From the NCBI GenBank assembly GCA_028284865.1, contig JANQQV010000006.1:1-64000 (forward strand): 64,000 bases of DNA, written 5' to 3'. This stretch comes from Rhodothermales bacterium. Its GTDB lineage: Bacteria; Bacteroidota; Rhodothermia; Rhodothermales; UBA10348. Each line of letters begins with the position of its first letter. Within the stretch, counting starts at the first letter, position 1. The notes under the pieces were generated by a model that did no database searches, was not told the DNA's origin, and saw only the letters and a list, made by a program, of their open reading frames with translations. Both the position numbers and the translations under genes were made by a program. Below, one piece after another: positions 4,954 through 50,730 of this stretch.

Positions 4954-7900
4954 ATGCCCAACCGCTTGCCAGGTCGTCCTGATATAGACGCTGCTTCGGC
5001 TGCTGAATTGGCCTTGAAGCTGTTCAATGTGTCCGCGACCGCGGCTCCGCTTCCCAGCGATCGGGATCTCAACTTCAAACTGAGCGACGCGAACGGACCC
5101 ATGGGGGTCCTCAAGATCTCGAATGCCCGCGAAGATTCGGGATTCTTGCAGTTGCAGGCGGAGAGTATGCAGGCCTTGTCCCAGGCCGGACTACCTGTTG
5201 CGGACGTGTTGGGTACCGACACTGTCGAGCTGGACGGTCAGACCCATGCCGTCCGCTTCGTGTCGTGGCTCGACGGCGCGCCGCTCGGAGACGCCAACCC
5301 GATCACACGATCCATGATGGAGCAGGTCGGAGCGCTTCTGGCCCGGGTCGGTGGCGTTCTGGAATCCATGGATGGTCGTGCCGCGCCGTCGGATTTTCCT
5401 TGGAATCTGTGTCGGGCGCGAAAGACCATCGAATCCCGGCTCGAGCTGCTGGGCGATGAGGAGCAGCGACTCCTTCAGTACTTCCTCGGTCTCTACGGCG
5501 ACATGCTCGAGCCGCGCAGACACGAGCTCCCTCACCAGCTCATTCACGGCGACGCCAACGACTACAATGTCCTGGTTGGGGATGCGAAGGCAGTCGAACG
5601 GCATGTCACCGCCTTGTTGGATTTCGGGGATATGGGAAGGTCGGCGCGCGTCGGGGACCCCGCCATCGCGGCCGCCTACCTGGCATTCCACTGTACCGAC
5701 CCTGTTGAAGCCCTCGAAGCAGTGCTGGCAGGATATCATGGCGAGGCGGAGCTCGATCCGTTCGAGGTTGAGGCTTTCTTCGTGCTGGTCTCGTTGCGAC
5801 TGTGCATCAGCGTGTGCATGTCGGCCGAGCAACGCGCTGCCGAGCCGGACAACGACTATCTGTCGATCTCGGAAAAGGACGCATGGCGCACCCTGCAGGC
5901 GTTTCGCGAGGTACATCCACGACTGGTCCACTACCGCCTCCGCGCCGCGCTTGGATGGGATCCTGTTCCGGATGCTACGGCGGTGACCCAGTGGCTGGCG
6001 AACCATGCAGACGACCTGCACGAAATGGTTCGCCCCGCTGTGAACCCAACGGACGATGGCGGCCCGGCAGATCCGGTGGTATTCGATTTTTCGGTGGCCA
6101 GCCTGGACTTTGGTGCGGATTCGATCACCGTGCCGGGCCATGCAGCCGAAGACATCTGGAAGCAGTGCGGCGATGCCGTCGGCATCGGTCGTTGGGATGA
6201 GCCTCGATTGGCGTACACCGGCAGCGCATATGAAACGGCCTCGGGTGAGCGGCGAACCGTCCACATCGGAGTAGACCTTTTTCGACCAGAAGGCACACCG
6301 GTCCACGCCCCGATGGATGGCGTGGTGCATTCGTTCTGCATCCACCACGACGCCTACGACTACGGCGGATGCGTCCTTCTCGAGCACCGACCCGACGACG
6401 GCCCTGTGTTTTGGACGCTTTATGGACATTTGAGCCACGCCTCGGTCCAGCAGTTGAGCGAAGGTCAGGCCATCCAGGGCGGCGAAGCCTTTGTCGAGCT
6501 CGGACCCTTCGAAGAAAACGGGGGCTGGGTGCCGCACCTGCACTTCCAGGTGATCACGGATCGACTGGACATGGAGGCCACGTTCCCGGGCGTGGCCGCG
6601 CCGGGGCAGCGCGCGGTGTGGTTGAGTCTGTCGCCGAGTCCACGGGATTTCCCGGGCCTGGGTCCACAGTGTGAGACCCCGGCGCGGCCATCCACGTCCG
6701 ATTTGTTGGCTCGAAGGTCCAAGGTGATTTCCGACGCGCTCAGCGTTTCGTACGGCGAGAAACTGCACATCGTCCGAGGACACATGCAATGGCTCTTCGA
6801 TTCAGAGGGCCGCGCCTACCTCGATGCCGTGAACAACGTTCCTCACGTCGGACACTCCAATCCGCGGGTTGTGAATGCACTGCATCAACAGATGCGGACG
6901 CTGACCACCAATACCCGGTACCTGCACGAGAGCATTCTCGAGTATGGTGAGCGACTGACAGATCTGCTTCCCGACGGACTCGACGTGGTCTTCTTTGTCA
7001 ACTCGGGATCGGAGGCCAATGACCTGGCTATTCGGCTTGCCCGGGCATACACGGGCAAGCGCGACATGATCGTGCTCGACGGGGCCTATCACGGTAACCT
7101 GTCGTCACTAATTGCCATCAGCCCCTACAAATTCGACGGAAAAGGTGGCTCCGGTCGACCGGCTGGCACGCACGTCGTCCCCATGCCCGATCCGTTCCGG
7201 GGTGCGCATCGGGGCATGACAGCAGAGACGGGTGCGGCCTACGCGGAATCCGTTCGCTCGGTCGCGGCTGAAGGATCCATCGCCGCATTCATGGCTGAAT
7301 CCGTTCCGGGATGCGGCGGACAGATCGTACCGCCCCCTGGATACCTCGCCGGCGCGGCCCATGCCATCCGCGAAGCCGGTGGCGTGTTCATTGCTGACGA
7401 GGTCCAGGTTGGCATGGGCCGCGCCGGCAGCCACTTCTGGGGCTTCCAGATCCACGAAACGGATGACCCGGCCACACATGTCAATCCCGATATCGTCGTG
7501 CTTGGCAAACCCATCGGCAACGGTCATCCGCTGGGTGCGGTGGTCACGACTCGCGCCATCGCCGATGCGTTCAACAATGGGATGGAGTACTTCAATACTT
7601 TCGGCGGCAATCCGGCCAGCTGCGCCGTTGGCCTGGCCGTGCTGGACGAAATCCAGGATCATCAATTGCAGGCACACGCCCTCGATGTGGGTCGACACCT
7701 TCTGACCGGCCTGAAGGCTCTCGAGACCCGGCATACCATTGTCGGTCAGGTCCGCGGAGTCGGTCTGTTCGTCGGTGTCGAGCTAGTCCGCAGTCGTGAG
7801 ACGCTCGAACCTGCTGCCGAGGAAGCATCCTACGTCGCCAATCGCATGCGCCAGGAAGGCATCCTGATCTCCACGGACGGACCGCTGCACAACGTCCTCA

Positions 7901-8007
7901 AGATCAAGCCGCCCATGGTGTTCAATCACGAGGATGCTGACCGCCTGGTCGACACTCTCGACAGGATCCTGGCAGAGGACTTCGTTCGTGCTCGCGTGAG
8001 GAGCTGA
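4954..8007 (+). CDS. Kinase - M23 domain - class III PLP enzyme fusion, likely hydroxylysine kinase/phospho-lyase
   Basis: A 1017-residue three-domain protein. Residues about 1-340 are an aminoglycoside phosphotransferase/hydroxylysine-kinase-like fold, with catalytic H198-G-D200 followed by N and a DFGD magnesium motif. Residues about 415-560 are an M23/LytM-like domain with the full zinc set (H437-x3-D441 and H528-x-H530). Residues about 580-1015 are a class III aminotransferase fold with PLP Lys852 in [10 protein letters not shown]. In animals, separate kinase (HYKK) and PLP lyase (PHYKPL) proteins phosphorylate 5-hydroxylysine and then remove phosphate and ammonia to give aminoadipate semialdehyde. 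The related ETNPPL acts on phosphoethanolamine and is the main alternative. Placement 35 nt after hydroxyproline genes favours hydroxylysine. No signal peptide is seen. Confidence 0.82.
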
Positions 8008-9814: not shown

Positions 9815-11455
9815 TCAGTAAACAATGACCGGCTTGGTGAGCGCATGGGTTTCATCGCGCACCACCAGGAAGTAGGTCCCTGCTGACAATCCGTCGACAG
9901 AAAGTGAAAACAGTCCAGATTCAGGGCGTGATATCCTGGACCGGATGACCTCACGCCCATCGACTGCATACAGCAGCACCTGCACGTCGCTCGCCATGCT
10001 GTCCGGTTCTTCCAGGCGAACGGTCAGTTCGTCCCGTGTAGGATTGGGATAGACAGAAAGCGTAGGTGCTTTCGAAGGAAGCGCTGACTCTGTGGCCGTG
10101 GAAGAGGGGAATGTCAACTGCCAGACACGAGCATTGGAGCCCCATTCCAGGATGTAGAGAGCGCCATCGAGCAGCACCGCATCGATCGGATTCTGGAACC
10201 CGGACGCCAGCCGCGTCGCCTGAAGGGTGGGTCCGCTCGGGGCGACTTCAATGTCCAGCATGAGAAGATCCTCGCCCTCTCCAATGAAAGGACCCAACAG
10301 ATCACTTTCCGGTCCAGTCCAGCTCAGCATCAAGCCGTTGCCTGTGTAAGGTGCCGGTAAATCACCATCCACGTCGAACACAAGACCCAGCGGAGACCGG
10401 TGTGGCGTGAATGACCCGATCGGCTGGCCGGTTGCATCGGCATCACGGATCTGGCCCGTGGATGGGTCCCGATACAGGTTTGCAACGGTTCCCACGTTGA
10501 GCACCGGATCTGTGAACGTGACGCCCGGCGGCGGGGAGGGATACGCTGGGTCGTTGTAGAAATAGTTGTTCTGTGCAGCAAACGACTGGGGATTGAGCAG
10601 CAGATCCGCGGCCGGGTCGTAATCCGGGAATTGCATGGGAGTCTCACCCAATCCCATACGCCACGGGAATCCGTAATGCTTGCCCTCCTCAAGGAGATTG
10701 AGTTCTTCCATGTCGTCACGATCCCCCGAGTTCTCCGTCCCGAAGAGGCGACCCGAGCCGTCGAATGCCATCGAAAACGTATTGCGCGTCCCATCAGCAA
10801 ACAGGTACCCGTTCGATACCAGGAAATCTTCATCGTCCTCGAGATAGAGATCCGACGCCGAAGCAGGTATTCGAAGGATGGCCGATGTCAGCGGGACTTC
10901 CCGGACTCCCGGAAACTGACCATTGCTCTCCTGCAGTTCTCCATGGTCTGTACGGGACCCGCTATTGAGAAACAGTTGCGTCTCGTCTGGACTGAGGACG
11001 ATCGAATTCAGGTTGTGATCGAAAGGCGTCTTGGAGCGCGGGAAAGGTGCGGTGGTAGCCACCGTGGACCACGTGTAATCTCCGCTTCCAGTTGGTGTAC
11101 CGCGCCGCACTACTCCGATGTTGAATCCATCCTGCGATCCGGTATCGTTCCCTACCAGATACATGGTTCCATCCGAAGCAATGGCGAGCCCCATCAGGGG
11201 ACTCGGAGTGCCGTGGATACCGCTATCGAAAAGCGGAGTGACTCTTTGATCGGACGGAGAAGGATCGAATGACGAAATCTGCCCACCCAGACCGGCCACA
11301 ATCAGGCGCTCTGAAAGCGGATCGAACGCCATTCGGACTCCGTCCACCAGGAATGCTGTCGACGTGATCTCCAGCCCGTTCTCATGAACCATAGGCTGAG
11401 CCGGGGAGGATGGGGCGATAAGACAGCAGACTGCGAGCAGGAACAGGCGACGCAT
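9815..11455 (-). CDS. Secreted glucose/sorbosone dehydrogenase-like protein with T9SS sorting domain
   Basis: A 546-residue secreted protein. It begins with a signal peptide (MRRLFLLAVCCLIAPSSPAQ), which is why this internal ATG was preferred over one 35 codons upstream. Residues about 30-440 form a six-bladed propeller of the PQQ-dependent aldose sugar dehydrogenase family, seen in DHNLNSIVLSPD, GTRNTFSMAFDGSGRLFGTE and EEGKHYGFPWRMG. The last ~80 residues are a Por-type sorting domain starting SVYPNPTRDELTV. Whether it oxidises sugars or only keeps the fold is unknown. It converges with the symporter gene and lies after a strong hairpin that separates it from the giant gene upstream. Confidence 0.82.
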   Translation of the reverse strand: MRRLFLLAVCCLIAPSSPAQPMVHENGLEITSTAFLVDGVRMAFDPLSERLIVAGLGGQISSFDPSPSDQRVTPLFDSGIHGTPSPLMGLAIASDGTMYLVGNDTGSQDGFNIGVVRRGTPTGSGDYTWSTVATTAPFPRSKTPFDHNLNSIVLSPDETQLFLNSGSRTDHGELQESNGQFPGVREVPLTSAILRIPASASDLYLEDDEDFLVSNGYLFADGTRNTFSMAFDGSGRLFGTENSGDRDDMEELNLLEEGKHYGFPWRMGLGETPMQFPDYDPAADLLLNPQSFAAQNNYFYNDPAYPSPPPGVTFTDPVLNVGTVANLYRDPSTGQIRDADATGQPIGSFTPHRSPLGLVFDVDGDLPAPYTGNGLMLSWTGPESDLLGPFIGEGEDLLMLDIEVAPSGPTLQATRLASGFQNPIDAVLLDGALYILEWGSNARVWQLTFPSSTATESALPSKAPTLSVYPNPTRDELTVRLEEPDSMASDVQVLLYAVDGREVIRSRISRPESGLFSLSVDGLSAGTYFLVVRDETHALTKPVIVY

Positions 11456-11503
11456 GAATGGCCGGGATTGAGTGGATGTATTGCGAACTAAGACCTGATG
11501 AAC

Positions 11504-11535
11504 GAAGCCGGGCTCCGCAAGCGGAGCCCGGCTTC
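11504..11535 (-). terminator. Perfect 15-bp hairpin after the giant surface-protein gene
   Basis: GAAGCCGGGCTCCGC and its exact complement flank a 2-nt AA spacer, giving a very stable stem 35 bp beyond the stop of the giant minus-strand gene and 49 bp before the dehydrogenase-like gene. The following bases are not T-rich, so it may work as a terminator or as a transcript-stabilising hairpin between the two genes. Confidence 0.65.
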
Positions 11536-11569
11536 CCAAGAGTACGAACGGAGGCGACACGATGAGGGT

Positions 11570-14500
11570 TTATTTGAGCAGCATCATCGTCTGGCTGAAG
11601 ATGCCGTCTGGTGTCGTCAGCCGATAGATGTATGCACCACTTGGTAGATCGGACGCTTCGAACGACACCTCGTGCCAACCGGGGGGCTGGAGCCCGTCGA
11701 TCAGCGTCGAGACAAGGCGACCCGAGACATCATACACCGCCAGATGTACATCTGCCGCGTGCGGCATGCCGAATCGGATCGTGGTCCGCGGATTGAACGG
11801 GTTCGGGTAGTTGCCCGCCAGTTCGAACTGCGTGGGGATTGAAGATTCGTCTTCAAGGGAGGTGAATGCGCCCCGAATGAACACGATTTCCTGCGGCGAA
11901 CTTGTCGATGTCAGCCCTTCCGGATCCGACGCAGTAACGCGTTGATACAGGGTCACCTCCGAGCCAGCAATCAAGTCGGGGACCACATTCAGCAGGTCCT
12001 GCCACGTGAGGCTGAATCCGGTTGAATCACCATCGACGGATAGCATGATGGACTCAAAAGTCTCCGAATCAGACAATTCCCACGTGTAGGTCACTTCACT
12101 CTGTTCGGGGTCACTGGCTGTTTGAGCGAGCGTGATGCGGAATCCGTCCGTCGTTTCAGCCGGATCGGATGCCGGTGATGCTCCTACCCACACAGGTCCT
12201 CCAGTCGAAGCAATGACCTGGCCGCTGCCGAATACCGGCGGTTCATTCACGTCAGAGACGGTTATGACGACCGCATAGTCAATGGTCGGGGACCCTTCCT
12301 CACCGGACCCGAAGCCGTACGAGAACTGGTCCTGCCCTACAAAGTCCATCTGAGGCGTATAGGTCAAGACACCCGACTCATTGTCAAATTCGACAGAGCC
12401 GTGCTCTCCCTGTGACAGGAACGTCGGGGGAATGATCAGACCTTCGACTTCCTCGGGCTGCGCTGCCACGACGGTGATGGACTGACCCTGGAGCGTCGAA
12501 GAGGACTGCGTGAATGCATCATCCCCACTGAAGTCGGCAACGGTGATGTGGACGGTTGCTTGGTTCTGGAGTCCGTTTTGATCGGCTACTACATACTCGA
12601 AAGAATCCTCACCTTCGAAATCGACTTCGGGTATGTAGCGGATGGATTGGTCGGTCAATACCACGGCTTTTCCTCTGGACGGGGAGCCAATCCGGATGAA
12701 ATGGACAGGCAGATCCTCAGGGTGCCGATCATTGTCGAGAACGGGTATATCAACCCACTCCGAGATGGGAGCGGATGTCTGATCATCCTCAGCAAGAGGG
12801 CCGTCCTGGACGGCGGTGACGGAAACGGTAACCAACGCTTCGGATCCCGAACCGACTCCATCCGATGCCTCATACGAGAACTGATCAATTCCGTTGAAAT
12901 CAGGAAACGGCACGTACCGTGTCGAGCCATCCTGCAAGACCTCAACCGATCCGGCTTGCGGTGGTGATGAGATGGTTACCGTCAGCGGATCACCGTCCGC
13001 ATCCGAGTCATTCGACAGAACGTCAATGTCGACTTGACCATCCTCCTCTACGGTTGCGTTGTCAGCCGTAGCCATTGGAACGGTGTTATCCGAGATCACA
13101 GGCATACCGGGGTCCTCGATCACGCCATTCACCACGAGATCATGGTCTCCACGGGCCCCATCGCGGAAGTGCAAATCAATCCGTCCCGGCGTGGTGACAA
13201 TACCCTGATCGTTCTTGACCTCCGGATGAATGATCGCGCCTGTTTGATCACTTTCTCGATACATGAAGCTGTACCAGCCAGAGAGCTCCTTTCCGGAGTC
13301 TCTTTCAACCAGGTAGATGCCATCGCTTGCAAGTACAGCCAGGTCCCCAGATCTGTTGCTTAGACGGGACGGAGACTTGAGCCCTTTGTACCAGGTGGAT
13401 ACGTTCCCGGACTCATCGATTTTTCGGATGGCATTGTTGCCCTGGTCAGTCACATACAGATCGCCGGAGGCATACACGATATCCGTCGGAGATGAAAATG
13501 TGGCTTCGGATGCTGGGCCATCCTTGAACCCGTTTGTAGACCCGGCAAACACCGTTTCCTGGCCCGTCGACAGATCGATTCTGACAATCCGGTGATCCCT
13601 GGGGCGAGTGATATAGGCGTACCCGCCCCCAACAGCCATGCCGCCATTGGCCACAAAGGACAGGGACGTGATGGACCTCACGTGGCCGAACACAAAACCT
13701 GAACGATTCTCCCTGACTCGCTCATAGACGCGCAGACTGCCAAAATCCAGGAAGTGTGATCCATCGACCTCCGTGACCCTGCCAAACCCGGCTCCCGGTA
13801 CGCCAATAGCAGCAGTCAACAAGTTATTCGGCGCGTCCCGGAATGTACCGGTTGCCGGGTCTATTATCCTTTTGCCACCAGGGCTCTTCTTGAATACCCT
13901 TCCATTGCCGTCGATCGTGGTCAACGACTGTTCCGCTCCCAACGTCTCCGCAACGGTCAGCACTGACGTATTGTAGTCAAAATTAGGGTCGCCCCCTCCC
14001 GGCCACCCAACCTGCCCTTCTGCCGACGCATCGGTCGACGTGATAGCTGAAAGACCAGCGAACGCTTTATCTCCGATCGCCTTGGGTGTCGGATTCTCGT
14101 CCAACCCGATCTGATATACGGCATTTGACGTGATCGCATAGATGGCGTTGGGGAGTCTGAGCTTCTGATCACGAGGTCCCCGGGGCTCTCGACGATTTTC
14201 CACCCAGATTCCAAAAAACGATGGATACACAAGATCAACGAAAGGGTATGCTGAGTCACAGCATACTCGCGTGGCTTTGGCGGGCTGTTCTGGAGGGATG
14301 TAGTATTCTCCGAACTTGAAGTATTCATCGACTTTCACGCCCTCCGGCAACTGGATACTCACGACAGACTTGCCATCGCTTCCCACCTGGTTGACATTGA
14401 AACTCAGGAATCCGAGTTCAGGGGTGGCCCCCTTGGGTAACTCGCCTTTCGGATCCGGGTTGGTTTCAGACGCCACTACCTGTGAGACCGTTTGTCCTTG

Positions 14501-17500
14501 TTGTGGTTGGATCAGCACGGAACGGCCGGCATTCGACCCCGCAGCGATATCAGTCAACCCATCGGCTTTCTGTACGGTCACGGTCACTTTCGCGGCGGAA
14601 TACAGGAATCCCCCACCACCATCGTCAGCTGCCCAATAGTAGAACGAGTCCGTGCCTTCGAAGAGGGTCCTCGCGGTGTACGTGAATGTGTTGTCGGTAT
14701 TCATGGTGACCGAGCCACCTGCTGTGTACATCGGGTTCTGGCCCGGCAGTCGAAACTGGAATCCATCAACTATTTCCGCAGCGTTGGCGATTCCGGTCAC
14801 CGCCACGTTGTGCATGACGCTGGCGCCCGTTGCAGACGCGTCTACAAGTTCACCCCAGCGTGCCAATGAGGGTGAATCCGTCGCGTCGGTCACCCGTCCA
14901 GCTCCAATCGGATCCAACGTTGCGGACTGGCCCCCTTTGACTGTGGCCGTCATCTCCTCGGCGACGGGAGGGTCATTGACAGGCTTGATGTCGACAAATA
15001 CCAAGCCCACTTCAGATTCGGCTCCCTGATCATCCTTGATCCAGTACTGGAAGTTGGCTGGACCGGCGTAATCCGGGAGAGCTGTTACTTCAATCTTCTT
15101 CCCGTCAATAATGCGAATGTTGGTGAACTGCTTGAACGTTCCACCATACGTCTCAAATTCTTCGGTTTGATCCACGCCGGTAATGATGAGGCTTGAGGTA
15201 TCCTCATCCGTATCGTTTGCCAGAACATCGAAAATGGCGGTTTTATCCTCGTCCATTTCGAAGTTGTCCGTTGTGGCGACGGGGATGCGATTGTCGTCAT
15301 CGATCATCGTGATTGTGACCTGCTGGGCCTGAGGCTCTGCCACGTGGTTGGAACCGTCAAGATCCACGTCCACGATGATGGTCTCGGCCGGGAATTCGCC
15401 GTCCGTGTCGTCGACGGACGTGAGGGTGACCGTTCCCTCTGTTTCGCCAGCCTTGATCGAAACGGCATCGGTTGACCACGTGAAATCATGGGAGTTCGAC
15501 GTGCTCTTGCCGGCAGCGGCCAACTGCCCGGTTGCGGTGCCGGTAAATGCCAGCTTTACCGTGGCATCTCGCTCCATCGCTTCCGCAAGGGTGATCGTCA
15601 GCGTCACCGACCCATCCTTCTCTGCGATCTCCGTTGCACTGGTTGCCAAAGTGACCGCGGGCGGTGTCTCGTCGTCGGTGATGGTGATTGCGGCTAATGA
15701 AGGTGTGGGCACCGTTGCGCCTCCCCCGGTAGCCGACAACACGCCATACAAGATCGCTTCCGGGCCTTCGTAGAGGTTGTCATCGATGCCGTAGACGGTC
15801 ATTTGTGACTCCGTTTCCCCGGCATCAATAACGACCTGGGTTGCCGGCTGACCAAAGTCATCTGTCGAGGCGGTACCCACAGCATCATCGCGGCTGATTG
15901 GAACCGTGACATCTTCAAAAGTGGGATGGGATAACTTCGCACCTACACGTACCAGACCTCCCTTCTCGGCAACCTCTGCAGCACTGGTCGAAATGGTGAC
16001 GGTCGGTGGGTCATCGTTGTCTATGATGTCCAGGGACGCCGAAGCCGGAGCGCCGGCCGTCACGTCGGTCGAACCGGGACCGTCCACTTCGAAGATGGCA
16101 GTCTCGTTGGCAGTGCCTTCGTAGATGTTGTCTTCGAATGCACTCATTTTGACGGTGCCTGTCGTTTCGCCTTTCGGAATCTCGAAGGACATGCCGAGCG
16201 TGCCCAGATCAAACTTGAAGTTCGCGTTGCCAGCGTCTGTCGGATCGAAAAAGAAATCATTCGCCTGCGAGGCGAATGACGCGGTTCCCCCGACCGGCTT
16301 GAGTTTGACGACGACATCCTTGCCACTGGCCTCAGAGAGCGTGGCCGTCAGTGTCGAAGTGTCCTGTCCGTCCTCATTTATTGTGGGACTGCTGAGACTC
16401 AGAATAGCCGTCGGGGGAGCGTCGTCGTCCGTGATCGTGGTCGTCACCTGCTGGGCCGTGGCCTCGGTGGCATTGGTCGTCCCCGTGATGTCCACAATGA
16501 CCGTTTCGTCGGGCTCATCCGTCGTGTCCTGGACCGGAGTCACATTTACCGTTCCGGTCGTGTTGCCCGCCGCAATCGCGATCTGTACGCCACTCCGCGC
16601 ATAGTCGGCAGGGTGCATGGCGGTGCCGGTGAATCCGAGATCCACTGTGACGGCCCGTTCACTTGCTTGAGCCAATGTGGCGGTCACGGTGGCCGTTTCG
16701 GCCGCCTCGGAAATGTTGGCCTTATCGATCGACAGCGTCACATTCGGCGGCGCATCATCGTCCGTGATCGTCGTCGATTGTTGCTGGGTGCCACTCTCCG
16801 TTCCGTTGGTCACCGTTCGGATTTCGACCACTACCAGTTCATCGTCCTCATCAACGGTGTCCTGCGTAGCCGTGATGGTCATCGCTCCGGAGACCGAGCC
16901 GGGCGCGATGCTGACCGGGTGACCACCGACCGCATAGTCTACACCAAGTGTTGCAGTTTCTCCCGGACCCACGCCCAATCCCACGGTGACCGTATTGGCG
17001 GAATAGTCACTCAGTGAGGCCGTGAACGTGGCTACGCCGCCTGCCTCAGCAATGGACGCCACATCCCGGGTCAGCGCGACGGTCGGCGAGAAGTCGTCGT
17101 CGAGGACACCGAATGCTATCTGTTGCGTCCCGCTTTCTGAACCGTCCACGACAGCGGTGATGTCCACAAAAATCAGCTCGGTCCCTTCGCTCGCGCCATC
17201 ATCGGTGGCTGTAATGCCGACGGCAGTATTGGCGGACGTATTGCCGGCAGGAATCGTCACTGAGGTCGAAGCGCTGGCATTGTAGTCCACGCCGTTCGTG
17301 GAGTTACCGGAATAGGCCAGTGTCACAACCACGTCCTGCGGACTGGGCGCGGGAATATTGACCGTAACCGTGCCCGTACCCCCATTCTCTACCATCGACT
17401 TGAAGGCTCCCGTTGTCAATGCAGCATTGCCCGACAACGTGACCTGAGGTCCATCGTCATCATCGATGGTCGTCGTGACCTGCTGTACACCGTTCTCGCT

Positions 17501-18148
17501 GGCACCAGTGACGCTCGTGATGTCCACAATCACCGTTTCATCAGCCTCGTCGGTGGCATCCGCGTTCGCGCTGATGGTCATCGTCCCGGTGGTCTGACCG
17601 GATGTGATGGTGATGGACGAGGCGCTGGTGGTGCGGTCCCCAGCCGCTGCGGTACCCGTGAATCCGAGGTTGACCGTGACATCCGATCCCACTGTCGCTG
17701 AAATGGTCGCAGTGACCGTCGCAACGCCACCGGTCTCCGAAATCGTCGGGTTGTCGACGCTCAACGAAACGGTCGGCCCAGCCGCCGCGGCAAACGTCGG
17801 GTAGCTTGGGCCGAATGCTCCGAACGTGCTGAACGTGGCGCCAACCGGGGTGACCGTGTCGTCGAATGAGTAGTAATAGGCTGAAAAAAGTTCAGGAAGA
17901 CCACCCGTGTCGATCACGACCCATGCTGTTTCAAACGCATTCCACCGAGTTGTCAGTGACCCGTTGGTATACGAGGTTTTCCCATCGACCGCCGCACCAG
18001 CCGTCCACGAGCCGTTGACCGGAGCGTGGCTCGCGCCCGAAGCCGTGAGGTTCTGGGCGAAGGCCTGGTTCGAAAAGCCAAAAAACAGAGCGATGAAGAA
18101 GCACGAGATACATAGATCCCGTACGTGCGGCCGGAGTGTGCGTGACAT
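11570..18148 (-). CDS. Giant secreted Calx-beta / cadherin-like / NHL surface protein with T9SS sorting domain
   Basis: About 2192 residues. The chosen ATG gives a signal peptide (MSRTLRPHV... ending SNQAFAQ). After a short start domain come seven Calx-beta repeats (about 124-950), each ending near a D/E-rich 'TITDDD' edge typical of calcium binding. Cadherin/VCBS-like domains follow (NRIPVATTDNF onward, to about 1220). A domain beginning near 1240 and ending with DLHFRDGARGDHDLVVNGVI near 1680 resembles the choice-of-anchor U family but is interrupted by ~340 residues of NHL-type propeller (DHRIVRIDLSTGQ, SPTDIVYASGDLYVTDQGN). Further cadherin-like domains lead to a Por sorting domain (GNYPNPFNPRTTI, from about 2109). 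A calcium-dependent adhesin or surface-layer protein is likely; ligand unknown. Confidence 0.85.
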   Translation of the reverse strand: MSRTLRPHVRDLCISCFFIALFFGFSNQAFAQNLTASGASHAPVNGSWTAGAAVDGKTSYTNGSLTTRWNAFETAWVVIDTGGLPELFSAYYYSFDDTVTPVGATFSTFGAFGPSYPTFAAAAGPTVSLSVDNPTISETGGVATVTATISATVGSDVTVNLGFTGTAAAGDRTTSASSITITSGQTTGTMTISANADATDEADETVIVDITSVTGASENGVQQVTTTIDDDDGPQVTLSGNAALTTGAFKSMVENGGTGTVTVNIPAPSPQDVVVTLAYSGNSTNGVDYNASASTSVTIPAGNTSANTAVGITATDDGASEGTELIFVDITAVVDGSESGTQQIAFGVLDDDFSPTVALTRDVASIAEAGGVATFTASLSDYSANTVTVGLGVGPGETATLGVDYAVGGHPVSIAPGSVSGAMTITATQDTVDEDDELVVVEIRTVTNGTESGTQQQSTTITDDDAPPNVTLSIDKANISEAAETATVTATLAQASERAVTVDLGFTGTAMHPADYARSGVQIAIAAGNTTGTVNVTPVQDTTDEPDETVIVDITGTTNATEATAQQVTTTITDDDAPPTAILSLSSPTINEDGQDTSTLTATLSEASGKDVVVKLKPVGGTASFASQANDFFFDPTDAGNANFKFDLGTLGMSFEIPKGETTGTVKMSAFEDNIYEGTANETAIFEVDGPGSTDVTAGAPASASLDIIDNDDPPTVTISTSAAEVAEKGGLVRVGAKLSHPTFEDVTVPISRDDAVGTASTDDFGQPATQVVIDAGETESQMTVYGIDDNLYEGPEAILYGVLSATGGGATVPTPSLAAITITDDETPPAVTLATSATEIAEKDGSVTLTITLAEAMERDATVKLAFTGTATGQLAAAGKSTSNSHDFTWSTDAVSIKAGETEGTVTLTSVDDTDGEFPAETIIVDVDLDGSNHVAEPQAQQVTITMIDDDNRIPVATTDNFEMDEDKTAIFDVLANDTDEDTSSLIITGVDQTEEFETYGGTFKQFTNIRIIDGKKIEVTALPDYAGPANFQYWIKDDQGAESEVGLVFVDIKPVNDPPVAEEMTATVKGGQSATLDPIGAGRVTDATDSPSLARWGELVDASATGASVMHNVAVTGIANAAEIVDGFQFRLPGQNPMYTAGGSVTMNTDNTFTYTARTLFEGTDSFYYWAADDGGGGFLYSAAKVTVTVQKADGLTDIAAGSNAGRSVLIQPQQGQTVSQVVASETNPDPKGELPKGATPELGFLSFNVNQVGSDGKSVVSIQLPEGVKVDEYFKFGEYYIPPEQPAKATRVCCDSAYPFVDLVYPSFFGIWVENRREPRGPRDQKLRLPNAIYAITSNAVYQIGLDENPTPKAIGDKAFAGLSAITSTDASAEGQVGWPGGGDPNFDYNTSVLTVAETLGAEQSLTTIDGNGRVFKKSPGGKRIIDPATGTFRDAPNNLLTAAIGVPGAGFGRVTEVDGSHFLDFGSLRVYERVRENRSGFVFGHVRSITSLSFVANGGMAVGGGYAYITRPRDHRIVRIDLSTGQETVFAGSTNGFKDGPASEATFSSPTDIVYASGDLYVTDQGNNAIRKIDESGNVSTWYKGLKSPSRLSNRSGDLAVLASDGIYLVERDSGKELSGWYSFMYRESDQTGAIIHPEVKNDQGIVTTPGRIDLHFRDGARGDHDLVVNGVIEDPGMPVISDNTVPMATADNATVEEDGQVDIDVLSNDSDADGDPLTVTISSPPQAGSVEVLQDGSTRYVPFPDFNGIDQFSYEASDGVGSGSEALVTVSVTAVQDGPLAEDDQTSAPISEWVDIPVLDNDRHPEDLPVHFIRIGSPSRGKAVVLTDQSIRYIPEVDFEGEDSFEYVVADQNGLQNQATVHITVADFSGDDAFTQSSSTLQGQSITVVAAQPEEVEGLIIPPTFLSQGEHGSVEFDNESGVLTYTPQMDFVGQDQFSYGFGSGEEGSPTIDYAVVITVSDVNEPPVFGSGQVIASTGGPVWVGASPASDPAETTDGFRITLAQTASDPEQSEVTYTWELSDSETFESIMLSVDGDSTGFSLTWQDLLNVVPDLIAGSEVTLYQRVTASDPEGLTSTSSPQEIVFIRGAFTSLEDESSIPTQFELAGNYPNPFNPRTTIRFGMPHAADVHLAVYDVSGRLVSTLIDGLQPPGWHEVSFEASDLPSGAYIYRLTTPDGIFSQTMMLLK

Positions 18149-18287
18149 GGTGGGAGAGGGCGCTGAGGGCGGGTTCGGGGTCGGAAGAATCGAAACCACC
18201 TAGATAGGGGAATCCCCTTTATGCAACAACTCCGAATGGCCCGCTTCTCAAGGAGGAAGCTTGATCCCAATCGCCAGCGCCCGACTC

Positions 18288-45528: not shown

Positions 45529-46878
45529 ATGGAATCCCGCCCAGCCTTTTGCTTTCGACTACCTCGCCTGGTCTGCCTGACCATCTTGTTGACGTTTGTT
45601 GCGCCAGGACTCGTCCACGCTCAATCAAGCGTCACCGCATTCGTCGATGTACACGTCGTCCCGATGGACTCAGAGCGTGTCCTTGAGCGTCACACGGTCC
45701 TTGTCGAAGACGAGCGAATCATGGAAGTCGGGCCGAGTACCGACGTGACGATCCCGGCCAATGCCACCGTGATCAACGGTGAGGGAAAGTACCTGATGCC
45801 CGGCCTCGCCGAGATGCATGGTCACATTCCCCCTCCGTCGCAACCTATGTCAGCCATTGAGGAGACGCTTTTTCTCTATGCGGCCAATGGTATCACGACC
45901 GTCCGCGGCATGCTGGGCTACCCGGGGCAGCTGGATCTGAAAGCGCGTGCGAACGCTGGCGAAATCTGGTCGCCCACGCTGTATCTGGCAGGGCCCAGCT
46001 TCAACGGCAGTACCGTTTCTACCCCCGAGCAGGCGGTACAGCGCGTCCAGCAGCAGGTGGATGAAGGGTGGGACCTGCTGAAGATCCATCCTGGCCTGTC
46101 GGTGCCCCAATATGACGCCATGGCGGAAACGGCCCATGAACTCGGCATCACGTTCGGCGGTCACGTACCTGCCGCTGTGGGCCTGGATCACGCACTGGAC
46201 ATGGGTCAGGAGACGTTCGACCATGTTGACGGATACGTCGAAGCGCTCGGTGGCGGACAGTCACCGATCAACATTATGGAACTGAACCGGCTGGTTCAGA
46301 AGACAATCGACAAGGGCGCTTGGGTCGTTCCGACCATGGCGCTGTGGGAAACCCTGTTCTTGACCACTCCCCTGGACGAACTCCAGTCCTACGATGAGCT
46401 GAAGTATGTCTCGCAAGCAGCCGTGGATTCGTGGTCGAATCAATACCGGGGGCGCCGGGCCACGGCCCAGTTCGTGCCTCCAAGCAATCAGGCTGTCATC
46501 GACGCTCGCATGCAGGTGCTGGCTGCGTTGTCAGACGCTGGGGCCCGGATCCTGATGGGCACCGATGCGCCTCAGCAGTTTTCCGTGCCTGGGTTTTCGC
46601 TTCATCGTGAGCTGCTCGTCATGGCGGACGCGGACATGACACCCTATGAAATCATGGTCACCGGCACGCGCCATGTGGGATCGTACTTCGCCCACAAGGA
46701 CACGTTTGGCTTGGTCGCCGAGGGCCACCGCGCCGACTTGCTGCTCGTGAATGACAATCCTCTCGAGGACGTTGCGCATATCGCAGACCACGAAGGAGTG
46801 ATGGTCCGAGGTCGCTGGCTCTCACGCGAGGCAATTGACGAGCGGTTGGCCACCATCGAGGCGCGTCACGCCAGATAG
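45529..46878 (+). CDS. Secreted amidohydrolase family protein
   Basis: A 449-residue metal-dependent hydrolase of the imidazolonepropionase/prolidase-like group. It has a signal peptide (LTILLTFVAPGLVHAQ), the beta-strand metal motif LAEMHGHIPPP, a His in FGGHVPAAVGLDHALDM and DHVDGY, and the catalytic Asp in LMGTDAPQ. The C-terminal strand AEGHRADLLLVNDNPLEDV is typical. Related secreted enzymes cleave Xaa-Pro dipeptides or act on other amides; the substrate here is unknown. A role in peptide use fits the adjacent aminopeptidase, which is divergent. Confidence 0.85.
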   Translation: MESRPAFCFRLPRLVCLTILLTFVAPGLVHAQSSVTAFVDVHVVPMDSERVLERHTVLVEDERIMEVGPSTDVTIPANATVINGEGKYLMPGLAEMHGHIPPPSQPMSAIEETLFLYAANGITTVRGMLGYPGQLDLKARANAGEIWSPTLYLAGPSFNGSTVSTPEQAVQRVQQQVDEGWDLLKIHPGLSVPQYDAMAETAHELGITFGGHVPAAVGLDHALDMGQETFDHVDGYVEALGGGQSPINIMELNRLVQKTIDKGAWVVPTMALWETLFLTTPLDELQSYDELKYVSQAAVDSWSNQYRGRRATAQFVPPSNQAVIDARMQVLAALSDAGARILMGTDAPQQFSVPGFSLHRELLVMADADMTPYEIMVTGTRHVGSYFAHKDTFGLVAEGHRADLLLVNDNPLEDVAHIADHEGVMVRGRWLSREAIDERLATIEARHAR

Positions 46879-46881
46879 CGA

Positions 46882-47094
46882 CTACTCGTCTCGCAGGATC
46901 TCATGGAACTCCGTCGTTCCGTCGCGCAGCATGCGGCGAACGTAAGGGTGGCACAACCGGCAATTGACACCAAATTCCCGCACGGCCTGCAGCGATTCAA
47001 TCGTATCCGCACCAGTCCGCTCCGCCGCCTCTTTGAGTTCGGTGAAGGGGACCTTGCTGCAAATGCATCGATCGATACAGACGGCCGAGGCCAT
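46882..47094 (-). CDS. BFD-like [2Fe-2S] protein
   Basis: A 70-residue protein with the BFD-type cysteine pattern: CIDRCICSKVPF at the start and NCRLCHPYV near residue 45. Such small proteins bind a [2Fe-2S] cluster and pass electrons or sense iron. It begins 5 nt after the stop of the propeller lipoprotein gene in the cobalamin-riboswitch operon, so it is probably co-expressed with them. A link to corrinoid reduction is possible but speculative. Confidence 0.8.
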   Translation of the reverse strand: MASAVCIDRCICSKVPFTELKEAAERTGADTIESLQAVREFGVNCRLCHPYVRRMLRDGTTEFHEILRDE

Positions 47095-47099
47095 AAGAC

Positions 47100-48209
47100 T
47101 CAGTTCAAGGTGATGGAGGAAATGGAGGCTCCTGCGGGGAAGCTCGAAATCGGGGTGCCGTCGCGGCTAAGAATCTCGACCGTTCCGGCGGCTGCATAGT
47201 CCGGAAATCGACCGGCACTCGACACGGGAAAACGACCAACATAGAGTTGGTCACGCCCTGCATCATACGCGACGCCCGAAAGTCCGATGAGCGAGGCACG
47301 ACCCGAGAGGTCCAGTGTGTCTGTAACCCGGACGTCATCAACGTCAATGACGACGAGCTGTTCACTGGATGAGAGCATGACGAATAGCTCATCGGTGGCC
47401 TCCGAGTACGACGCGCTGACCGTGCCATTTGTCGAACCCGCCTGACCGGAGAGAACGATTCTGTCCGTGACGACAAAGTCTTCGTTGAACATCACTACTT
47501 GTCCGGGAGTGGTTTCCAGAATCTGGGTAAAGTCAGCCGAATAGACGGTTTTGCCTGAACAAACCAGGATCAGGCGATCGTCTCCTGTGAAGAGATCCCG
47601 CGGCCCATCGCAGCCAGTTTCGACTGAAGTTGCATCTCCTCCAGACGCGGCAATACGACTAAGGGTCGTCCCGGCGCCCAGTGAGCCATTGTTGGCTACT
47701 ACGACAGAACCCTCCCAGTAAGCGATGCCCTCCGGCACCTCGCCAACCTGAACGGAGCGCGCGATGGAGCCGTCTTCAGCCAGCGCGATGGCGTTTCCTG
47801 GAGACCCGAAAGCGAATGTGCTGACCCAGATCAGGTCGTCCACCCGAACGAGATCCCGAGGACTGTCAAACCCGCTCCATTGCACGCCCGTTGACTGGCC
47901 GGATTCGTCCATCACATCAATCCTGCCGGGTCCGAACGTATTGATGAGTGCAAGAACGCGATCACCATCCATCGCCACGCCCTGGACGAATCCGGCCAGC
48001 GAGCCACCCTGAACCGTCGCGGCCGTTTCCGGGTCGTGAAACGTGAGATGTCCGTTCTGGTCAGAGAAATTGCCGCCGTTGGCCACGATCACGCCAGACG
48101 CTTCGGGAAGTGACGTGTCATCGTCGCCCCCCAGAACGTCGCAGCCGGAAAGAACGAGAGCGAACAGTACCAGGAAGGACAGAAAGCGAGTGAAGTGCGG
48201 GGGTTTCAT
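47100..48209 (-). CDS. Beta-propeller surface lipoprotein, BtuG-like candidate
   Basis: A 369-residue lipoprotein (lipobox LVLSGCDVL) whose mature part is a YncE-type propeller with repeated blades (VQGVAMDGDRVLALINT, VPEGIAYWEGSVVVANNG, SGVAYDAGRDQLYVGRF). It follows a TonB receptor gene in an operon headed by a cobalamin riboswitch. In gut Bacteroides, the surface propeller lipoprotein BtuG captures B12 for BtuB, so a BtuG-like role is the best guess. I infer it from fold and context; orthology is unproven. Confidence 0.75.
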   Translation of the reverse strand: MKPPHFTRFLSFLVLFALVLSGCDVLGGDDDTSLPEASGVIVANGGNFSDQNGHLTFHDPETAATVQGGSLAGFVQGVAMDGDRVLALINTFGPGRIDVMDESGQSTGVQWSGFDSPRDLVRVDDLIWVSTFAFGSPGNAIALAEDGSIARSVQVGEVPEGIAYWEGSVVVANNGSLGAGTTLSRIAASGGDATSVETGCDGPRDLFTGDDRLILVCSGKTVYSADFTQILETTPGQVVMFNEDFVVTDRIVLSGQAGSTNGTVSASYSEATDELFVMLSSSEQLVVIDVDDVRVTDTLDLSGRASLIGLSGVAYDAGRDQLYVGRFPVSSAGRFPDYAAAGTVEILSRDGTPISSFPAGASISSITLN

Positions 48210-48258
48210 GATAGCGGGGTTGGTGAGATTGGAACAGGTTTAAAGGAGAGCTCGGCCC

Positions 48259-50235
48259 TCAGGAATGAGGCCGTTTGAAAAGGGGCGTCGGAAGTAGCGT
48301 GATTGAGAAATGCCACTCCCGGCCCGGCATGGGCATCCACGGAGAGGATTCTCTGGATCGATTGGTCACATTCAGCAGACTGGTCGCCACGCGGATCGGG
48401 ACCTTTCCGAATCGTAGTCGGGCTTGCATTCCCAGGTCGAGTTCGGAGAAAGCATCCAGCCATTGGGATTCGTCGGTGGCCGTGAATCGCCTACCCGTGT
48501 GGTGCCATGCGATAAAGGCGCCCCATCGATCCCTATTGTGCTCCACCTCGAACCCGCCCGTGTGAGGGGTCGTGTATCGAAGCCGATTGCCGTAAGAGGC
48601 GGCCAGAGGATTGGAGTGATCTCGTTGATCGATCACGGCGGCAGAGGACGAGACCTTCCAGTGTGTGGCCGGCTCCCAGTCCAATACCATCTCCACACCC
48701 CGACCTCGCACCTGAGCGATGTTGTCTGCCGTCCAGATATGGCGTGCATTGCCGGAGAGTGCAGGCCGCCAGCTGATCCGGTCGTTGATGTGACTCATGA
48801 ATGCCGTCAAACGAGCGCGGATGGGCGCGATTTCCGGACCTACCGTGGCGGCCACAAATCCTTCGGCTTGCCAGCCCTTTTCTGGTTCGAGATCTGGCGA
48901 TCCGCCGGGCTCCCAGAATCGCTCATTCAAGGTGGGCAGGCGGTACACGGTGCCGAGCGAAAAGCCCGTGAGCAGCCTGTCCCAAGACCGACTTGAAAGG
49001 TGGAGGGAGGGAGAGATCCGCTGATGCGTACGATTTGATGTCGGTGCAGAAACCGGTACCGATGCCTCGGAACGCTGCCGAACTCCTTGCATCTTGAGGG
49101 CGATGGATCCCACATCAACAACACGCTCGAGCGAGAGCCGTGCGGATGCTTCATTCTGTTGGGTGCGCTGTCTGTTGTGGACTCGTGCATGCCTCGCCTC
49201 CACGTCAAATGCTGCAATCCATGAATGGCCCAGCACCCTTGAAGCCGAAGTCGTCCAGACGTATTCGGCGACCCGGCTTCGCAGTGAATCGGTTCGTTCC
49301 GGGCGATAGTGAAACGTCGACCGGGTAGTCGAGAGCCGGACGTTTATCGGCATATCCGCAAATGAACCGCTCAACCCGACGGATGCGAGGACAAATGTGT
49401 CATCCTGTCGCGCGCCCGGAGCTACGGCATTGGCAAGTGCTGGAATGCCTCGATTGACTTCCGAACCGAGTAGCGTGACTTGCAACGCGACGGGGTGGGA
49501 CGATGCCGACGATTCGCCGTCGTTGGGTCCGCTTGGCCATTCTTGGCGAACCGATAGGAATCCTGAAATGGATTGGCGATCGCTATCCAGCCTGCGAATC
49601 TGCGAGCGAGTGGAGCTAAGCGGATCTTGGTATGGGAAATCGCCCTCATATCGGGTCGTGGCCACCGATGAAGTGATGCTGCGATGACTGCTACTCCAGT
49701 TTCCTTCGCCGTTCAGATTCAACGATCCGAACGAGCCCGTGGAGAAGGTCACGCTGGAGGTCGTCGCGGCACCTGAATCCAGAGAGATCGTGCCGCCCGG
49801 CGCCGAAGCAGTTGAAGTGAACGTCGAGGCCCCTGAGATGAGCGCCGAAGAGAGTACGGCAGGAGGTAGAACGGACAGGTCAAAAGAGCCCGTAGACGGA
49901 TTCATCAAGCGCACGCCATCGAGTTCGATGCGCGTCGATGCAGCACCCAGGCCTCTTAGGGACGCCATGGCCGCTCCTGTTGGGCCAGCTTGTCTGAGAT
50001 CCAGCCCCGGAGCGAATTGCAGCATCCGGAGTGCGTTTCCGGTAGTGCTGACAGAAAGACGATGGCGGTCAACCCGGGTAGCGCCGTACAGAATGGACTG
50101 CTCCCAAGCCGCAGCTTCTACCTCGATGGTAGGCAGCACCACGACCGAATCTTGCGCCTGCCCGAATACCGGGCTCGCTATGACAAGCGCGCAAAAGCAG
50201 CAGGCAACGACCTGCAAAAAGCGATGACCGAACAT
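48259..50235 (-). CDS. TonB-dependent receptor under cobalamin riboswitch control (BtuB-like)
   Basis: A 658-residue outer-membrane receptor with signal peptide (FLQVVACCFCALVIASPVFGQ), a TonB-box-like VVVLPTIEVEA stretch, a plug domain (MASLRGLGAASTRIELDGVRL) and a beta barrel. It lacks the carboxypeptidase-like N-terminal domain of the other two receptors in the window, as expected for vitamin receptors. The leader RNA is a cobalamin riboswitch, so it most likely imports B12 or other corrinoids. An ATG ten codons into the longer frame was chosen because it starts the signal peptide. Confidence 0.85.
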   Translation of the reverse strand: MFGHRFLQVVACCFCALVIASPVFGQAQDSVVVLPTIEVEAAAWEQSILYGATRVDRHRLSVSTTGNALRMLQFAPGLDLRQAGPTGAAMASLRGLGAASTRIELDGVRLMNPSTGSFDLSVLPPAVLSSALISGASTFTSTASAPGGTISLDSGAATTSSVTFSTGSFGSLNLNGEGNWSSSHRSITSSVATTRYEGDFPYQDPLSSTRSQIRRLDSDRQSISGFLSVRQEWPSGPNDGESSASSHPVALQVTLLGSEVNRGIPALANAVAPGARQDDTFVLASVGLSGSFADMPINVRLSTTRSTFHYRPERTDSLRSRVAEYVWTTSASRVLGHSWIAAFDVEARHARVHNRQRTQQNEASARLSLERVVDVGSIALKMQGVRQRSEASVPVSAPTSNRTHQRISPSLHLSSRSWDRLLTGFSLGTVYRLPTLNERFWEPGGSPDLEPEKGWQAEGFVAATVGPEIAPIRARLTAFMSHINDRISWRPALSGNARHIWTADNIAQVRGRGVEMVLDWEPATHWKVSSSAAVIDQRDHSNPLAASYGNRLRYTTPHTGGFEVEHNRDRWGAFIAWHHTGRRFTATDESQWLDAFSELDLGMQARLRFGKVPIRVATSLLNVTNRSRESSPWMPMPGREWHFSITLLPTPLFKRPHS

Positions 50236-50387
50236 GAAAAAGGGTCTGTACCTCAGATTCCTCAACTTGCTCAGATGAGGAAGGCACAGACCCGACGGAC
50301 ATCAACCGTATCCACCGATTCGGGACACGGGAAAATGATTCGACGGTGCCAGTACCTCTTATCCCGGAGGTGTTGGACACCATTCGA

Positions 50388-50580
50388 GGGACCGGTCTCC
50401 TGACTCGTGATGGTTCTCCCACGCCCCTCTGGATTCGACCTTCCCGGCGATCTGCAGTCACGCAGACCCAACCAGTGGTCGTTCCATCTTCGGGGTGTGA
50501 CCTATCACACACAGTTGCGGGTACAGCTCCGGCTACCCAGAGAGTGTTGGTCTCTGGCCCGGATTCCCTGCAATTGACCT
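50388..50580 (-). ncRNA. Cobalamin riboswitch
   Basis: On the minus strand the leader contains the core elements in order: AGGGAATCCGGGCC, the conserved GGAGCTGTACCCGCAACTGT near 50511-50530, an inner stem region, and GAGTCAGGAGACC near 50394-50406. These match the cobalamin riboswitch consensus. It lies about 150 nt before the TonB receptor start codon and should lower expression when cobalamin is plentiful. Outer limits are approximate. A TAACTTGC sequence near 50622-50629 on this strand could be its promoter. The rest of the 50236-50730 gap shows no gene. Confidence 0.9.
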
Positions 50581-50730
50581 TGGCCAATTGCGTCCGTCGA
50601 ACGATTTGCAAAGAGCGAGCCGCAAGTTACTCTAGGCCGGGTGCTCGCGTCAAGAACATCCCGCGCTTGCTGTTCGTTTGTTTGGTCTCGAGCCCGTTCC
50701 GTTTTGTTGCCTTCCTTTTCCCCTGCTCTC

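Follow-up and report, generated by a model that had tools for sequence, protein, structure and literature searches.

The window analyzed here was a 64,000-nt stretch of DNA from a Rhodothermales bacterium (GCA_028284865.1, contig JANQQV010000006.1, positions 1–64,000). From 50629 to 46882, its minus strand carries a cobalamin riboswitch, a leader hairpin, and genes for a TonB receptor, a propeller lipoprotein, and a BFD-like [2Fe-2S] protein, in this order. The locus is very probably a riboswitch-controlled B12 uptake operon of the BtuB-BtuG type (probability about 0.87), with a putative corrinoid-binding propeller that would act as a lid on the receptor. An earlier reading of the same DNA, made from the sequence alone (the sequence-only reading), had given the same span and element order, and both were correct when coordinates and domain matches were re-checked. 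Its single elements also held: both riboswitch core strings lie inside the RF00174 match, the TonB receptor contains the Plug (PF07715) and TonB_dep_Rec (PF00593) domains and belongs to the BtuB kind known as the partner of BtuG, and the propeller lipoprotein has a signal peptide and a lipobox LSGC, in which the lipid Cys23 is followed by DVLGGDDD. The receptor and propeller genes are 49 nt apart, and the propeller and BFD genes only 5 nt. This order is more than chance, because it was found again in about 40 other loci and, by coordinates, in 70 genomes.

To characterize the propeller, a family profile was built from 39 Rhodothermales relatives. The single propeller sequence had no match in Pfam or NCBIfam. 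The family profile matched all twelve PDB BtuG sequences at full length, over approximately 320–350 residues, with E-values of 1e-25 to 1e-28. YncE and other propellers reached E-values of 1e-8 or worse against the same profile, and the archaeal 1l0q scored well through four short repeat stretches only. The AlphaFold2 model of the window propeller had a predicted local distance difference test score (pLDDT) of 94.0 and was compared with solved structures, among which 3dsm/8bai served as named BtuG fold references. The top 16 Foldseek matches were BtuG1, BtuG2, and BtuG3 chains (E-values of 7e-16 to 5e-13), followed by BtuK1. In VIA, the top 11 matches were BtuG, with Z values of 32.3–33.9 and root-mean-square deviations of 2.4–2.8 Å over about 300 residues (best Z of 33.9, 2.4 Å over 299 residues). 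The sequence-only reading was to be given up if no structural match to BtuG appeared, and both comparisons returned one. BtuK1 (9s6c) and YncE share the beta-propeller fold, and BtuK1 also binds B12, but their matches were clearly weaker than those of BtuG. The mature propeller contains 47 acidic and 16 basic residues, and this acidic excess agrees with the negatively charged face of BtuG (PMC10404256). By profile and predicted structure, the window propeller is a BtuG homologue and a putative corrinoid binder.

The anchoring of the propeller was compared among the 39 relatives. The lipid cysteine was aligned with Cys32 of BtuG2 in 32 of them. The remaining seven (L046, L049, and L051–L055) lack the lipobox cysteine and have a C-terminal type IX secretion system (T9SS) type A sorting domain instead, so that each relative carries exactly one surface signal, either a lipobox or a T9SS tail. 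Because one or the other anchor was present in all 39 sequences, their comparison argues that surface placement of the propeller is what selection keeps.

The only PDB relatives of the receptor at E ≤ 1e-3 were the BtuBs of the B. theta BtuBG complexes 8bmx, 8p97, 8p98, and 8blw (E-values of 8e-20 to 1e-11). TIGR01779 (TonB-B12) was its top NCBIfam match, yet the score of 71.5 bits lay far under the equivalog cut-off of 599.7. Therefore, going by these homology matches, the receptor is BtuB-like and of the Bacteroides type rather than an enterobacterial BtuB equivalog. Its start was placed at ATG 50235, and translation could also begin farther upstream, at TTG 50265.

RF00174 was the sole Rfam match within the window, and its score of 61.3 bits exceeded the gathering score of 31.5. 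The leader hairpin (−32.3 kcal/mol, z of −5.5 by folding) is followed by TTTTT, one base, and the receptor ATG. A scan with the consensus terminator missed this hairpin, probably owing to its interrupted stem and long loop, and it was detected by folding. Of 39 loci, 29 showed such a terminator-like layout right before the start codon; at least two of these 29 hits (L043 and L055) look fortuitous. The consensus across loci was GGCCCGnnCCTCn4TTGAGGTnCGGGC-T6. In relatives, the 3' arm of the P13 hairpin can pair with the 5' arm of the terminator: z was below −1.5 in 19 of 22 loci, with a mean of −2.4, as calculated with mononucleotide shuffles for loci that are related by descent. This complementarity is consistent with a terminator/antiterminator switch that would respond to the ligand, and the riboswitch appears to work via transcription termination.

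Relatives of the operon were sought in 114 Rhodothermales genomes, and 40 propeller loci were read (L031–L070). Propeller relatives were detected in 82 genomes with the single sequence and in 86 with the profile. The receptor gene adjoined the propeller gene in all 40 loci and the BFD gene did so in 35, and the riboswitch was located upstream in 38; in the other two, the contig ended inside the receptor gene. Both propeller and BFD were found in 73 genomes, and in 70 of them the BFD gene comes immediately after the propeller gene, on the same strand. There were three exceptions: in G018, BFD stands next to a fragment of a propeller gene where the contig ends; in G055, the two genes are located at contig ends; and only in G035 are they truly separate. 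The co-occurrence of BFD and propeller gave a Fisher p of 7e-6, a value that ignores shared ancestry and on which no weight was placed. Named carriers of the operon were Longimonas halophila, Salinibacter altiplanensis, Salinivenus, and Rhodothermus.

Several variants were observed among these loci. Two BtuG-like propeller genes and a BFD gene occur together in one locus at L121:5519-8356 and also in G033 and G047, and the propeller genes flank BFD in L121 and G047. A decayed BFD-like frame that has lost the CxC motif directly follows the propeller gene of G098 at L034:6543-6334 (minus strand). A PIG-L/BshB-like deacetylase gene follows BFD in several families (L036, L037, L040, L047, L058, L061, L062, and L064), and in some of them genes for a response regulator and another membrane protein come next.

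The use of B12 was surveyed in 36 genomes. B12-binding-domain proteins scored over the cut-off in all 36, MetH-sized frames were present in nearly all, and a PduO-type adenosyltransferase was found in 34. CbiC, the marker tested for de novo synthesis, was detected in none of the 36. A search for DUF6580 in these genomes gave no match, and the control genomes were likewise silent, so its absence cannot be claimed. DUF6580 membrane proteins were observed inside riboswitch-headed B12 operons at L086:7056-7610 and L090:8819-9427, and they are candidate inner-membrane B12 importers. A ribonucleotide reductase near BFD in L089 was considered as the B12 enzyme NrdJ and rejected as evidence of a B12 enzyme, because class I models matched it best (TIGR02506, 733.8 bits, over the cut-off; TIGR02504, below the cut-off).

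The last gene of the operon had been named BFD-like [2Fe-2S] in the sequence-only reading, which proposed no function; PF04324 and the cysteines bear this name out. The window protein scored barely over the PF04324 cut-off of 26 (26.5 bits, E-value of 8.2e-6), and all 35 BFD relatives matched this model. It has no signal peptide. The residues C10, C12, C45, and C48 (CxC...CxxC) were invariant in the 35 relatives, which also share the motifs IDRCxC and PYVxxML. In a comparison of its predicted structure (pLDDT of 82) with solved proteins, Pseudomonas Bfd was the only match. The protein resembles Bfd of P. aeruginosa (4e6k, 6e6r) in its BFD-like [2Fe-2S] domain, cysteine spacing, and predicted fold. 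However, it differs by its 19% identity, its N-terminus, the conserved motifs IDRCxC and PYVRRML, and the B12 operon context, and it scored 13.6 bits against the 75 of the Bfd equivalog NF007803, outside that class. We tentatively propose that it carries electrons in the cytosol for the reduction of corrinoid, its presumed substrate.

The position of BFD was followed where the operon changes. In G105 and G107 (L077 and L078), the propeller is missing while riboswitch and receptor are kept, and BFD lies about 25 nt after the receptor gene. In G357 (L086), from a distant lineage of the phylum, the order is riboswitch-BtuG-BtuB-DUF6580-metH-BFD, and in G128 (L090) it is riboswitch-BtuB-BtuG-BFD-DUF6580. 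Several genomes of family f13 (L048, L066, and L067) have a substrate-binding-protein-like gene between propeller and BFD, and in L067 a DUF6580-like frame was recognized by eye. In six genomes (G089, G095, G100, G101, G103, and G104; L071–L076), riboswitch, receptor, and propeller have been lost between BFD and TolC, and BFD is retained in place with TolC, MlaC-type, and glycosyltransferase-like genes as neighbors, the same flanks as those of the window operon. These six genomes keep MetH-sized frames and an adenosyltransferase. Because of these operon-loss, propeller-loss, metH-cluster, and genome-content comparisons, BFD is linked to cells that use B12 and probably salvage it, and not strictly to the BtuBG uptake route.

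BFD relatives were also observed in other settings. In Balneolaceae (L081–L085 and L122), BFD stands in a tight dcd-BFD-rsmE order. In L113 and L114, from Sericytochromatia / Cyanobacteria metagenome-assembled genomes, the BFD relatives are convergent with a gene for a proline/alanine-rich small protein, and no B12 genes were recognized nearby.

From these results, the following mechanism can be proposed. At low adenosylcobalamin, the leader would antiterminate and the operon would be expressed. The BtuG-like surface lipoprotein, the predicted lid of the BtuB-like receptor, would then capture corrinoids, and the receptor would move these to the periplasm using energy from TonB, both by homology to the described complexes (PMC10404256). 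For capture and passage, this homology is strong. In the cytosol, BFD may pass electrons to the imported corrinoid, so that Co(III) is reduced before adenosylation or B12 enzymes (MetH, for example) are re-reduced. The adenosylation product would in turn shut the leader: at high adenosylcobalamin, the aptamer would hold the P13 hairpin and the terminator before the receptor start codon would form.

Some results weigh against the uptake operon. With the single propeller sequence, the BtuG match among PDB sequences was not significant (best E-value of 0.28), and the profile was needed. The window's own antiterminator pairing was weak (z of −0.6). Among the genes of the window operon there was no BtuCD-F-like inner-membrane transporter, and the BtuF-like protein of L067 had no relative in the window's genome. 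The pocket also differs. In BtuG2, W194, W272, and Y316 narrow the upper-ligand cavity and Y335 bonds the adenosyl group (PMC10404256); in a sequence alignment of these four named residues, W194, W272, and Y316 were mostly replaced in the family by L/F, A/T, and G/S. The Y335 position is mostly Y/F and is aromatic in 39 of 39 relatives. Because the narrowing aromatics are replaced, the upper-ligand cavity of the family is probably wider than that of BtuG2. The changes at W272 and Y316 in most relatives, together with the retained aromatic, would suit a BtuG homologue that binds corrinoids weakly and acts as a structural lid, or one that prefers a bulky upper ligand (adenosylcobalamin) through the wider pocket. 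We consider this unlikely, as the overall fold is closely that of BtuG and the pocket was mapped by alignment and not by coordinates. Siderophore and haem receptor models also matched the receptor, weakly, and would point to an operon that imports such another ligand and has an incidental riboswitch. This is highly improbable, given the riboswitch upstream in 38 of 40 loci, TIGR01779 as the best NCBIfam match, and PDB relatives that are all BtuB.

The role of BFD is less settled than that of the uptake genes. It may be a dedicated B12-assimilation ferredoxin of B12-salvaging lineages, co-regulated with uptake, that reduces imported Co(III)/Co(II) corrinoid so that it can be adenosylated or MetH can be activated, a proposal that we make at somewhat less than even odds. 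Two observations weigh against it: genomes of family f3 contain the operon and B12 enzymes but lack BFD, and the BFD genes of Balneolaceae and Sericytochromatia are not located near B12 genes. Alternatively, BFD could be a general or bacterioferritin-type ferredoxin without a B12 role, which became the last gene of the operon early in Rhodothermales and was kept by inheritance. Such a passenger gene would explain why BFD outlives operon loss, stands beside dcd and rsmE in Balneolaceae, has no B12 context in Sericytochromatia, and finds its closest solved fold in Pseudomonas Bfd. However, the order was kept over about 70 genomes of many families while other neighbors changed, BFD comes after the receptor in loci without BtuG and after metH in the B12 cluster of the distant lineage, and B12-repressed riboswitch control would be odd for an iron-storage partner. 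We give this passenger explanation roughly one chance in three. It is also conceivable, and rather improbable, that the electrons of BFD go to MetH alone among the B12 enzymes, re-reducing its cob(II)alamin, and not to newly imported Co(III) corrinoid. The metH-BFD adjacency in L086 and the MetH-sized frames kept in genomes with BFD and without the uptake operon would agree with this, but the metH link was found in one genome only and the f3 genomes have B12 enzymes without BFD.

The features of the operon are listed in Table 1. Downstream, an amidohydrolase gene (45529-46878) lies on the opposite strand and is convergent, with its stop codon 3 nt from that of BFD. Elsewhere in the window, a 2209-aa protein with Big_9, cadherin-like, and Calx-beta domains is encoded at 11570-18199 (minus strand), adjoining a T9SS-tailed GSDH protein (9815-11560), and one frame at 4954-8007 (plus strand) fuses APH phosphotransferase, M23 peptidase, and class III aminotransferase domains.

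Table 1. Coordinates of the predicted B12 uptake operon in the window.
Feature	Position	Strand	Basis
Cobalamin riboswitch aptamer	50373..50612	(-)	RF00174, 61.3 bits, E 9.8e-13, full model 1-189
P13-type hairpin ACCTCCGGGATAAGAGGT, start of expression platform	50354..50371	(-)	sequence; 3'-arm complementarity in relatives
Intrinsic-terminator hairpin 50293-50242 and U-run TTTTT 50241-50237	50237..50293	(-)	-32.3 kcal/mol, z -5.5
BtuB-like TonB-dependent receptor	48259..50235, start possibly 50265 TTG	(-)	PF07715 and PF00593
BtuG-like beta-propeller lipoprotein, 369 aa, lipid Cys23	47100..48209	(-)	profile, AlphaFold2 model, Foldseek, VIA
BFD-like [2Fe-2S] protein, 70 aa, Cys10/Cys12/Cys45/Cys48	46882..47094	(-)	PF04324

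The locus was compared with known systems. It resembles the BtuB-BtuG systems of gut Bacteroides (B. theta loci 1–3; PMC6143338, PMC10404256) in its cobalamin riboswitch, a BtuB-type receptor beside a seven-bladed propeller lipoprotein, full-length homology, best fold match, and acidic propeller, and in cells that use and probably do not make B12. Unlike those systems, the Rhodothermales are non-gut bacteria, identity is 14–17%, three of the four named pocket aromatics are replaced, some members are T9SS-anchored, btuC/D/F and BtuH are missing from the operon, and BFD is added. BtuG homologues were given as exclusive to Bacteroidetes from 313 human gut genomes, and BtuG was discussed as a means to compete with host B12 carriers (PMC6143338). 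The Rhodothermales are now placed under the phylum Rhodothermota at NCBI. Judged by homology, the range of the BtuG family is extended to this order, and the BtuG-style system that the sequence-only reading had suggested for non-gut Rhodothermales was recovered as BtuG and BtuB homologues under a riboswitch across the order. DUF4465, another B12-binding family, has likewise been reported to extend beyond the gut (PMC13398666). Dedicated proteins passing electrons to corrinoids also exist, namely RACo and activating enzymes (PMC6739815); they are a precedent for function only, these enzymes are ATP-dependent, and no homology to BFD was seen or is claimed. No paper was found that links BtuG to Rhodothermus, connects BFD ferredoxins to cobalamin riboswitches, or names DUF6580, in a search whose coverage left out most subscription journals. 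The conserved place of BFD in the B12 operon is the part not reported in the literature searched.

Surface capture of the BtuG kind would thus not be tied to the gut, because the same pair was found throughout the Rhodothermales, including relatives of Rhodothermus, Salinibacter, and Longimonas. To our knowledge, the physiological corrinoid reductant is known in few bacteria. A ferredoxin co-regulated with uptake in B12-salvaging genomes, by way of presumed steps between ferredoxin and B12, opens this question of the corrinoid reductant to test.

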